IMG/VR virus record: IMGVR_UViG_3300021087_000056
Span: 1 to 30,600 of that record
Direction: 5' to 3' (one strand)
DNA: 30,600 nt
Source: a virus
Shown here in pieces: positions 5,247-8,196 of this stretch. Position 1 is the stretch's first letter. Every line of letters begins with the position of its first letter. The notes beneath the pieces are model-generated. The model did no database searches. It saw only the letters and a list, made by a program, of their open reading frames with translations, and had not been told where the DNA came from. The translations under genes and the position numbers were made by a program.

Positions 5247-5648
5247 TTATTGGTTTTTAAATTTAGTTAGTAAATATCCTGATTCAAATGGTGCTCTCAT
5301 AATTCCACCACTCATCATAAATTTACTGATTACTCTTTTTACACTCGAAGTACTAATACTACATGCTTCTGCAATTGCATTAACAGATTGTGGCCATGTA
5401 GATCTGTGATGCATAAAAAGCAGTACTGCTTTCTCATACTGATTTAGATCTGACTCATAGATATAGTCTTGTTCTTCTGAGATTGAATCACCTCGTTTAG
5501 TATCAAACTCTTTGTCTTCTTTTAGTACTGGTTCCATCATAGGAGCCATAGCCTTTCTTAGTTCATCTCTTAGGCTTTCGATTGATTCGATTAAACCTTG
5601 TTTTGTTTCTACTCCATCTAAGAAGTAATTGATTTCCTGTTCATTCAT
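5247..5648 (-). CDS. Winged-helix/HTH DNA-binding protein, likely replication regulator
   Basis: This encodes 133 residues. The N-terminal half is acidic and helical. Residues about 70-125 fit a winged helix: YEKAVLLFMHHR, then AIAEACSISTSSVKRVISKFM as the helix-turn-helix, then a wing with GGIMRAPFESGYLL. This arrangement is typical of DnaD-like or replication-initiator DNA-binding domains in phages. It is the first gene of the replication operon, downstream of a palindrome at 5669-5686 that it might bind to control itself. Helicase loading or origin binding is likely, but no family is assigned with certainty. Confidence 0.7.
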   Translation of the reverse strand: MNEQEINYFLDGVETKQGLIESIESLRDELRKAMAPMMEPVLKEDKEFDTKRGDSISEEQDYIYESDLNQYEKAVLLFMHHRSTWPQSVNAIAEACSISTSSVKRVISKFMMSGGIMRAPFESGYLLTKFKNQ

Positions 5649-6295: not shown

Positions 6296-6321
6296 TTTGT
6301 TTTGTTTTTATTGATTAATTA

Positions 6322-6387
6322 ATTATTATACTACTAATATACCACTAATATTTGATATAAAAAAATTATTTAGCGTTTATTTTCAAA
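6322..6387 (-). promoter_or_regulatory. Early promoter cassette, copy A
   Basis: This is one of four near-identical elements. Read on the minus strand: an A/T block containing AAACGCTAAATAATTTTTTTAT, then TCAA, exactly ten variable bases, then TATATTAGTAGTATAAT, then the leader of the gene starting at 6295. The last part holds both a TATAAT and a TATATTAG box. The fixed spacing in all copies and position before a start codon support a promoter or activator-plus-promoter unit. Confidence 0.6.
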
Positions 6388-6392
6388 GTTTT

Positions 6393-6602
6393 TTATCCTT
6401 GCCATTCAGGTTGTACTGATTTTCTATGGCATTTGTATATTACTTGTTCAACACATCTAATATAACTCAAATTCTCATGTGAAATAAAGCAAGTGTTAGA
6501 ATGTTGTTCTAATCTAATATTGTGTTTTGTACAATACTCTTTTACGGGAAAGTAAATAGGATCAGTTTCAGTGTTGATTGTTGGACAAATTGTGTAATTC
6601 AT
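6393..6602 (-). CDS. Small Cys-containing early protein, 69 residues
   Basis: This encodes 69 residues with five Cys and several His (for example EYCTKHNIRLEQHSNTC and CVEQVIYKCH). The spacing does not form an obvious zinc finger. No family is recognised. It has its own copy of the early promoter cassette directly upstream and a Shine-Dalgarno-free leader, so it is expressed separately rather than as part of a coupled operon. An early anti-host role is possible from position only. Confidence 0.65.
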   Translation of the reverse strand: MNYTICPTINTETDPIYFPVKEYCTKHNIRLEQHSNTCFISHENLSYIRCVEQVIYKCHRKSVQPEWQG

Positions 6603-6628
6603 TTTGTTTAGTTTTATTTGTTATTGTT

Positions 6629-6694
6629 ATTATTACTCTACTATATTACCACAAATTATTGAGATAAAAAAATTATTTAGCGTTTATTTTTAAA
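6629..6694 (-). promoter_or_regulatory. Early promoter cassette, copy B
   Basis: This copy has the same block order as copy A: AAACGCTAAATAATTTTTTTAT, TCAA, ten bases, then a box diverged to TAATATAGTAGAGTAAT. It fills the gap between the stop at 6695 and the start at 6602. The following leader AATAACAATAACAAATAAAAC is nearly the same as in copy C. Confidence 0.6.
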
Positions 6695-7051
6695 TTATTT
6701 TGAATAAGATAAATCATAGAAAATAGGCTCTTCTGCATTTTGCTTTGCGAACTTTGCTTCAAGTCTATCTTCGCGGTCTAATTCATTTAGACGTGCTTTG
6801 TATGAGCCATTGAAACAATTAGTATCTATAGTTTGATGAATTGTTCCGTCTGATTGCCATTTACCTTCAGCAATTTGAGCATTGCGCATATCAAAGATAT
6901 AACCTTTATTTATTTTTGTGATGTTCATACCGACTTCTATAAATGCAGAGGTTTCGATAATTGTAATACGTGTAGGGTTTTTACCTAACTTTTTTAGGTT
7001 TTCAATAAAGCTTTCTAATACTAATACTGAGTTTTTGTTTTGATTTTTCAT
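6695..7051 (-). CDS. First early gene, hypothetical protein of 118 residues
   Basis: This encodes 118 residues. The N-terminus is helical and basic, the middle is beta-rich (ITIIETSAFIEVGMNITKI), and the C-terminus is charged. No family is recognised. It is the gene closest to the main control region and has two promoter cassettes upstream (C and D), so it should be the first and perhaps most strongly expressed gene after infection. The ATG at 7049-7051 follows an A-rich leader without a Shine-Dalgarno site. Confidence 0.7.
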   Translation of the reverse strand: MKNQNKNSVLVLESFIENLKKLGKNPTRITIIETSAFIEVGMNITKINKGYIFDMRNAQIAEGKWQSDGTIHQTIDTNCFNGSYKARLNELDREDRLEAKFAKQNAEEPIFYDLSYSK

Positions 7052-7078
7052 TTTTACTTGTTTTTATTTGTTATTGTT

Positions 7079-7144
7079 ATTATTATACTACTAATATACC
7101 AAATCTTTTTGACATAAAAAAATTATTTAGCGTTTATTTTTAAA
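7079..7144 (-). promoter_or_regulatory. Early promoter cassette, copy C
   Basis: On the minus strand it reads AAACGCTAAATAATTTTTTTAT, GTCAA, ten bases, then TATATTAGTAGTATAAT and a leader of about 28 bases to the ATG at 7051. It matches copies A and B in order and spacing and is the cassette nearest the first gene. Confidence 0.6.
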
Positions 7145-7173
7145 ATAATTTCTTTAGAAGGTAAATAACCTCC

Positions 7174-7239
7174 ATTAGTATACTACTAATATACCACAAA
7201 TAATTGACATAAAAAAATCTGGAGTGATTTATTTTTAAA
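7174..7239 (-). promoter_or_regulatory. Early promoter cassette, copy D (no gene directly behind it)
   Basis: This is the fourth copy. Its distal block differs (ATCACTCCAG where the others have ACGCTAAATA), but TTTTTTTATGTCAA, the ten-base spacer and TATATTAGTAGTATACT are kept. No gene lies between it and copy C, so it is a tandem upstream promoter for the first early gene or makes a short leader RNA. The changed block may give different control. Confidence 0.5.
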
Positions 7240-7278
7240 ATAATTTGAAACAAAAAAAAAACTGGATATATAAGGTAT

Positions 7279-7308
7279 GTTACTAATCTTAGTAACGTTA
7301 TAGTTTTG
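7279..7308 (+). promoter_or_regulatory. Candidate plus-strand promoter with operator palindrome
   Basis: GTTACTAA-TC-TTAGTAAC (7279-7296) is a perfect 8-base inverted repeat. Five bases later comes TAGTTTTG (7301-7308), an exact match to the Bacteroidota -7 box TANNTTTG on the plus strand. The palindrome fills the space between this box and where a -33 box should lie, a classic operator position; no good -33 TTTG is present, so activation may be needed. The only thing downstream is the short RNA region ending at 7372. Confidence 0.4.
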
Positions 7309-7312
7309 TACT

Positions 7313-7372
7313 ATTTATTATATTTTACTTGTTTGAAGCCAGTGTTCTTGATCGTCACTGGCTTCTTTTTTT
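7313..7372 (+). ncRNA. Putative short RNA (about 60 bases) opposite to all neighbouring genes
   Basis: This is inferred from a -7 box at 7301-7308 and a strong plus-strand terminator at 7335-7372, with no open reading frame between them. There is no plus-strand gene anywhere upstream in the window that the terminator could serve. The RNA would be an A/U-rich 5' tail plus the terminator hairpin. It lies outside the early transcripts but inside the control region (7052-7464), which has no protein-coding gene. Start position and existence are inference. Confidence 0.35.
7335..7372 (+). terminator. Rho-independent terminator (plus strand)
   Basis: GAAGCCAGTG (7335-7344) pairs perfectly with CACTGGCTTC (7356-7365) around an 11-base loop, followed by seven T. 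This ten-pair G/C-containing stem stands out in the A/T-rich surroundings. On the minus strand it lacks a T tract, so it acts on plus-strand transcripts. Confidence 0.85.
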
Positions 7373-7375
7373 GCA

Positions 7376-7415
7376 TAAAAAAGCCCCTGTAAAAAATGGC
7401 TTAAATACAGGGGCT
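7376..7415 (-). terminator. Rho-independent terminator of the late operon (minus strand)
   Basis: AGCCCCTGTA (7382-7391) pairs perfectly with TACAGGGGCT (7406-7415). Read on the minus strand the stem is followed by a T run (7376-7381). It lies 49 bases after the stop of the last late gene (7465), so it should end the long late transcript before it enters the early control region. Confidence 0.88.
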
Positions 7416-7464
7416 CAACCTAAATAAATCAATGGCACATGACAGCCATCAATACTATATATAT

Positions 7465-8196
7465 CTACGAAATTCTAATCTTCAGTGCACCGTTTGTATG
7501 ATATACACCACCTAAAGGTACTCCCGCTGCAGAGGCTGCTGCATCATCTGCGAAGTTAATGTTTAAGTAGTTTTGTATTTCTAACAACTTAATACTTAAA
7601 GTATCACTGTATGCTGCTGTAATTCCATCACCTAGTGCTATGGCACCATATGCAGTAGTATTTGCACCATTTCCAATTGCCACACTGGCACCTCCAGTTG
7701 CCGTACTGTTTGCTCCAATGGCTGTACTAGAACCACCTTGGGCAACACATGAACGCCCAATTGCAGTATCATTTGAATTAACTGCATCAGAATCATTTCC
7801 ATATGCTTGAGATTCTAAACCAGTTGCTTCACAACCTTTACCCACACTGGTACTTTGAGTTGAACTTGCAACCGAGGCATCACCTATAGAAATCGATTGA
7901 CCACCTGAAGCGTTTGCTGCAGTACCAGTTAAACTAGCAGCTGACTGCATAGAGTTTGATCCTGATCCTGCTTCTAAGCCTGCAGCTCCACCACCACCAA
8001 CTCCAACTACTGTTGCTCCTGTAAAATCTACAGTTCCAGATGGGAAGTTGATTTGGTTTGTTTTAATTTCCATATTGATGGCATTACCTGCACCATCTGT
8101 TATTCCTTTTGCAGTACCACTTATAGCGGCATTGTCTGTTGTTTTGAGTAAACCTTCGTAACTCGTATTAATTGCATTTCCTGTTAAAGTTGCCAT
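7465..8196 (-). CDS. Fibre protein with YadA-like head repeats
   Basis: This encodes 243 residues. Residues 101-197 are seven 14-residue repeats (such as STAIGANSTATGGA and SVAIGNGANTTAYG) matching the YadA head repeat, which folds as a trimeric left-handed beta-roll in adhesins. The N-terminus (about 1-60) looks like a virion-attachment domain. A Gly/Ala-rich linker follows (60-100). The end, NFADDAAASAAGVPLGGVYHTNG, resembles a C-terminal module common in phage fibres. It is probably a trimeric receptor-binding or decoration fibre. It is the last gene of the late operon, next to the spike and PKD proteins. Confidence 0.75.
   Translation of the reverse strand: MATLTGNAINTSYEGLLKTTDNAAISGTAKGITDGAGNAINMEIKTNQINFPSGTVDFTGATVVGVGGGGAAGLEAGSGSNSMQSAASLTGTAANASGGQSISIGDASVASSTQSTSVGKGCEATGLESQAYGNDSDAVNSNDTAIGRSCVAQGGSSTAIGANSTATGGASVAIGNGANTTAYGAIALGDGITAAYSDTLSIKLLEIQNYLNINFADDAAASAAGVPLGGVYHTNGALKIRIS

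Follow-up and report, generated by a model that had tools for sequence, protein, structure and literature searches.

The stretch of plus-strand DNA at 7279-7372 is best explained as encoding a structured small RNA, phage-specific and about 93 nt long, that would act in trans through the loop of its 3' hairpin, a reading in which, taken whole, we have moderate confidence. (The window analysed is an entire IMG/VR virus record of 30,600 bases.) The unit begins upstream of the RNA with a predicted promoter box, TTGAAAC-N17-TATAAG, at 7245-7274 on the plus strand, whose exact 17-base spacer is kept in relatives. The RNA itself would consist of a 5'-terminal hairpin, GTTACTA-ATCT-TAGTAAC, at 7279-7296; an A/T-rich linker at 7297-7334, which includes a TAGTTTTG box (7301-7308); a 3' terminator hairpin at 7335-7365, with stem arms GAAGCCAGTG (7335-7344) and CACTGGCTTC (7356-7365) enclosing the loop TTCTTGATCGT (7345-7355; class I); and a run of seven Ts at 7366-7372, an intrinsic terminator tail that is also kept in relatives. 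(A technical note: the RNA start at 7279-7281 is deduced from the promoter box and the 5' stem, and the RNA end is set at the T-run.) That promoter and terminator are the RNA's own, and that its structure and loop are under selection, is supported by comparison with related phages.

Essentially all the genes of the window, and all the convincing ones (terminase, portal, tape measure and primase are recognised among them), lie on the minus strand, so that the initial annotation was right to find no plus-strand gene upstream. The small-RNA locus is flanked by the last of the late genes (7465-8196) and the first of the early ones (6695-7051). On the early side the minus strand carries a leader repeat in four nearly identical copies of 75-100 nt (6302-6395, 6600-6705, 7047-7155 and 7170-7250; TTTTTTTATgTCAA..TGGTATATTAGTAGTATAATAATAACAATAACAAATAAAA): three precede early genes, and the fourth, a divergent early-operon leader/promoter repeat at 7170-7250, has no gene directly behind it. 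One copy of the same repeat is found in the related locus L055, at 4230-4122. A direct DNA search of phage isolates with the window gave no match. A flavobacterial host is likely, because the isolate relatives of the portal are phages of Nonlabens, Bacteroides, Parabacteroides and Phocaeicola (together with one Microcystis phage), and because three contigs of the same phage group, each of about 24 kb, are found inside a Flavobacteriaceae MAG, FRAM18_bin221 (L405, L406 and L408; CAJIZF010000005.1, CAJIZF010000008.1 and CAJIZF010000007.1). Contig 5 of that MAG bears the RNA unit (L414, position 473).

The initial annotation had listed a palindrome, a box, an A/T-rich stretch, a stem and a T-run at this place, and all of these are present in the sequence, the palindrome at 7279-7296 reading GTTACTAA-TC-TTAGTAAC. 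Taken singly, they carry little weight: perfect palindromes with 8-base arms and a spacer of at most 4 number 3 in the window where 4.6 are expected, and for TANNTTTG boxes the count is 50 where about 40 are expected, so that the palindrome and the TANNTTTG box, each alone, are within chance. Since they are singly at chance level, the elements could not by themselves decide the RNA question. Folded as RNA, 7279-7371 yields -25.3 kcal/mol (z = -5.6), and none of 200 shuffles did as well. The decisive support for an RNA is the conservation of the unit in related phages.

Related loci were collected in more than one way. A terminase-based search gave 24 loci of 59-100% identity; in three of them (L040, L037 and L055) the sequence reaches the junction, and all three show the unit. 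A loop-pattern search added L162 and the more distant L278 (portal 43% identical), and a search with the phage's sigma-like protein (discussed below) contributed 77 relative loci. The window, L040, L037, L055, L298 and L300 were reached through proteins, and a promoter scan that makes no use of the loop recovers most of the units again. In these phages the unit stands at the junction of late and early genes and has the same order: promoter box, RNA with a 5' stem, A/T-rich linker, terminator hairpin. Homologous units are found in more than 20 distinct relatives, and the 23 that were folded all have negative z values, from -2 to -7.3. Promoter and terminator directly flank the RNA and are conserved together, as is expected of an independent small-RNA gene. 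What the initial annotation had taken for a short, separately transcribed, non-coding RNA on the plus strand of the control region thus gains likelihood from the conservation of the unit.

The orientation of the unit is not fixed. It is antisense to the genes in the window and in L037, L040, L055, L162, L278, L298, L300, L302, L303, L306, L314, L316, L317, L320 and L329; it is sense to the genes, often just before an early promoter, in L178, L044/L045, L333, L335, L342, L345, L349, L350 and L354. Because it occurs in either orientation and always at the same junction, the unit behaves as a gene of its own. (Sense units with other loops lie on the plus strand at 204-350 in L044, 512-620 in L333, 5120-5280 in L335, 5483-5600 in L345 and 7861-8010 in L350. 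In a different marine phage, TGAAACAA..GGTATAATTAGTAT stands directly before an apparent tRNA gene, at position 330 of L177 and position 4352 of L181.) A unit that stays at the late/early junction whichever way it points might also be a replication or packaging element: an RNA that serves as primer or forms an R-loop at an origin, or a packaging RNA. We regard this as quite improbable: GC skew is unchanged at the junction, a strong terminator directly ends the RNA, the terminase genes are about 8 kb away and no Rfam family matches.

For the 3' helix, covariation was counted on five sequences, with L055 left out. All 50 cells of its 10 pairs are paired (100%, as against 33-60% in slid controls), 5 of the 10 pairs have changed on both sides, and the covariation amounts to 0.59 as against 0.00-0.21 in the slid controls. 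A covariance model (R1) built on the same five sequences recovers the omitted L055 at E = 1.3e-4, and its weaker matches, in L298 (E 0.0017), L300 (0.0058), L320/L322 (0.011) and L317 (0.22), all lie on the strand opposite to the genes. Retention of the stem in related genomes was the test on which the initial annotation had staked its RNA; the compensatory changes and the recovery of L055 favor one. The shape is kept while the letters change, which means that evolution preserves the RNA itself. A conserved protein is ruled out by the loop lengths of the relatives (11, 13, 14 and 15 nt), because differences of a single base between close relatives break the reading frame; the stretch at 7279-7372 also has no ATG, in agreement with the earlier statement that it holds no frame for a protein.

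The loop behaves differently from the stem. The stems vary (GAAGCCAGTG/CACTGGCTTC in the window; AATACCAGTG/CACTGGTATT, AATACCGGTG/CACCGGTATT, GAGCCCACTG/CAGTGGGTTC and AGATAGCGGGG/CCCCGCTATTT elsewhere) and the loop core CTTGATCGT does not: it is identical in seven phages (the window, L040, L037, L162, L055, L278 and L298), a constancy that is inflated to the extent that L162 and L278 were found by way of the loop. In an eighth phage, L300, the loop differs by one base from CUUGAUCGU. This constancy holds only within a clade, CUUGAUCGU being the loop word of the window's clade; other clades carry other or unrelated loops, with UUAAGCCAUUUU-like and AUGNCCAUUUU-like words in L317, L302-L309, L314, L320 and L414, the word GACGUUCUGUU in L178, L316 and L329, and unrelated loops in other sense units. 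(Scans for loop patterns alone returned mostly unrelated sequence, and solely those matches with a flanking stem were kept.) Selection on RNA structure, combined with a constancy specific to the loop, is what the comparison supports.

Could the hairpin be "merely" a terminator? Two terminators face each other here, the one at 7335-7372 and that of the late operon on the minus strand at 7381-7416 (loop TTTAAGCCATTTTT, constant in relatives), and the pair might simply insulate the late and early operons from each other, with promoter and loop retained by common descent and no functional RNA involved. Moreover, the loop of the late-operon terminator, UUAAGCCAUUUU, is itself constant in the window, L040, L037, L162, L298, L300 and L329, so that constant loops are not special to the small RNA. 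We nevertheless consider a simple insulator unlikely. Unless the plus strand is transcribed, a terminator on it would serve no purpose, and no plus-strand gene lies upstream; the unit has a promoter of its own with strict spacing, as well as a 5' stem under selection; and this hairpin keeps its loop and varies its stem, whereas in a terminator it is normally the loop that is freest to vary. (In the late-operon terminator, too, a changing stem surrounds a retained loop, TTAAGCCATTTT, in L040, L037, L162, L298, L300 and L329, and its loop word recurs in the small-RNA hairpin of L317.)

The palindrome at 7279-7296 had been proposed as a protein-binding operator. Is it instead an RNA stem? Twenty-four units, each found by its promoter together with a terminator downstream, were examined for a stem between the start of the predicted RNA and sequence further along it, with dinucleotide shuffles as the control. 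By this simple test a 5' stem is found at p < 0.05 in 17 of the units and is not significant in the remaining 7; Fisher's combination over 20 less redundant units gives p ~1e-14, a value that is optimistic to the extent that some of the units are related. In most units the stem begins at the predicted first base, and the RNA start predicted from the promoter box of the window coincides with the start of the palindrome. The 5' arms differ among phages (GTTACTA, TATCAACA, TGTCAATC, TGTAGATTG, TGATTACTG), and the spacer between the arms ranges from 4 to about 90 bases. Because letters and spacing change while pairing stays, the comparison identifies the palindrome as the RNA's own 5' hairpin and not as a DNA operator. 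The exact palindrome has 29 matches in 2.9 million viral contigs, which is about the number expected by chance, and only in this same phage is the hairpin alongside.

The TAGTTTTG box at 7301-7308 is not conserved and is probably not a promoter here. An operator at 7279-7296 controlling a TANNTTTG promoter at 7301-7308, with an RNA of about 60 nt, was the arrangement envisaged in the initial annotation. Both elements exist and the hosts are probably Bacteroidota, in which TANNTTTG is the usual -7 box. That arrangement has become very improbable indeed: the box lies inside the predicted RNA, and TANNTTTG occurs in the window about as often as by chance and is not enriched in the phage group together with a -33 TTG (TTG-N17-23-TANNTTTG occurs 2.28 times per 10 kb in the group and 2.31 times in unrelated contigs); moreover, relatives replace the palindrome with stems of other letters and long spacers that do not resemble an operator. 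The density of TTG...TANNTTTG is raised in a distant isolate, Nonlabens phage P12024S (5.6 per 10 kb), in which the promoter box of the present group is absent.

That box, at 7245-7274 in the window, would lengthen the RNA from the 60 bases first estimated to about 93 nt. In 762 kb of sequence from 77 relatives, [TA]TGAAAC and TATAA are separated by exactly 17 bases in 74 instances (near-duplicate contigs among the relatives cause this number to overstate the independent cases), by 18 in 12, and by the other spacers tested in 0-2; in 143 unrelated viral contigs (1.2 Mb) the corresponding counts are 0 at 17 and 5 at 18. With its -35 TTGAAAC, its TATAAT-like -10 and its fixed spacing, the box resembles promoters of the Sigma-70 and ECF types and is unlike the TTG...TANNTTTG promoter of the Bacteroidota. 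It also stands before protein genes, for example on the minus strand at 5719-5690, before the gene at 5247-5648. (At that place the segment 5719-5660 comprises a TTGAAAC-N17-TATAAT promoter followed by a hairpin, TGTAACAACGAAGTTACA; L345 (at 5679) and L316 (at 168) have this hairpin behind the box as well. Hairpins at the 5' end may be a general feature of the transcripts of this phage group.)

A candidate reader of the box is encoded at 597-1142 on the minus strand, by a protein that is conserved in the 77 related contigs and is ECF-sigma-like in its predicted fold. Pfam sigma-70 models stay below their cut-off on this protein (14.2 bits at best, as against 25.3), and a Foldseek search returned nothing below E 0.001 (best E 0.03). 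Its AlphaFold model (mean pLDDT 83, pTM 0.42) has as its best PDB matches nearly all sigma factors: region 4 superimposes on that of E. coli sigmaE with Z 9.5 and 2.1 A over 68 residues, and VIA-align matches the whole to M. tuberculosis SigL with Z 10.2 over 160 residues, at an rmsd of 13.0 with the domains set differently, although mostly helical models may reach Z values of such size by chance. The model suggests folds of sigma regions 2 and 4, region 2 less certainly than region 4. Bacillus ECF sigma factors are known to use TGAAAC as a -35 word, and this encourages the assignment of the TTGAAAC box to the 597-1142 protein.

How might the RNA work? Its expression, stability, target and function, like its action in trans and the assignment of its sigma factor, are what we infer from these comparisons. 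Transcription would start at about 7280 from the TTGAAAC-N17-TATAAG box, proceed along the plus strand against all the protein genes and end at the T-run at 7372. The product would carry a hairpin at its extreme 5' end, which probably shields it from decay, then an unpaired A/U-rich linker and the 3' terminator hairpin. The same promoter box stands before early protein genes, so that the RNA is probably co-expressed with those genes, perhaps by way of the ECF-like sigma factor. The constant loop, UUCUUGAUCGU, is probably the working part, contacting another RNA (most likely one of the host) or a protein. The translation starts of the window phage and its relatives show no conserved complementarity to the loop, which makes a host RNA or a protein the likelier partner. 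(Other pairings were considered and set aside: within the window, the loop is complemented exactly only by the opposite strand of the gene itself; kissing with the loop of the opposing terminator is worth only -2.0 kcal/mol; and self-pairing through the GAUC core of the loop, at -4.8 kcal/mol, is possible but is not claimed, because 4-base palindromes are common by chance.)

A constant loop that lacks a conserved complementary site in phage translation starts also suits an RNA that does not regulate by base pairing at all and serves instead as a binding site or decoy for a protein, such as a host RNA-binding protein, an RNase or RNA polymerase. The switching of loop classes between clades as whole words, in the manner of recognition sites, can be cited in its favor; clade-specific words could equally track different RNA targets in different hosts, however, and no partner protein is indicated. 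The decoy and the immunity signal that the initial annotation suggested are both functions that the RNA may have. We give a protein decoy serious consideration at a clearly lower probability than an RNA acting in trans through its loop. A more far-reaching reading can be put forward only tentatively, as somewhat more apt to fail than to stand: that the RNA belongs to a widespread, undescribed family of marine flavobacterial phages, with a terminator hairpin whose clade-specific loop word is aimed at host RNA or protein, early transcription by a phage sigma factor, and a gene that flips its orientation at a fixed late/early junction.

The small RNAs of Bacteroidota phages are little explored, and a keyword search of 5.39 million open papers found no description of one. 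Dozens of marine phages share the present RNA family, whose promoter and structure are defined and whose loop is constant, so that any control of the host by RNA in these phages can be tested directly and cheaply; a promoter word specific to the phages, and the sigma factor that probably reads it, come out of the same comparison. In 149 Flavobacteriaceae genomes no homologue was found: three weak model matches are ordinary terminators with other loops, in the number that chance would provide. Across the window and 11 relatives, none of 4227 Rfam families reaches its curated threshold. The match of lowest E, to the Vibrio sRNA VrrA (RF01456; 23.4 bits as against a threshold of 50, E = 0.066), is treated as chance, like the other hits below threshold; VrrA and the present RNA are alike in being built of hairpins, with a terminator as the last element. 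Small regulatory RNAs encoded by phages are exemplified by the c4 RNA of P1 and P7 and the CI RNA of P4. The RNA described here differs from these in having its own promoter, in a 3' hairpin that is its own terminator, and in that no complementary phage leader was found; it would resemble them as a short, separately acting phage RNA with exposed-loop hairpins, encoded in a control region. Phage small RNAs are a known kind, of which the present family, with its anatomy, appears to be an undescribed member.
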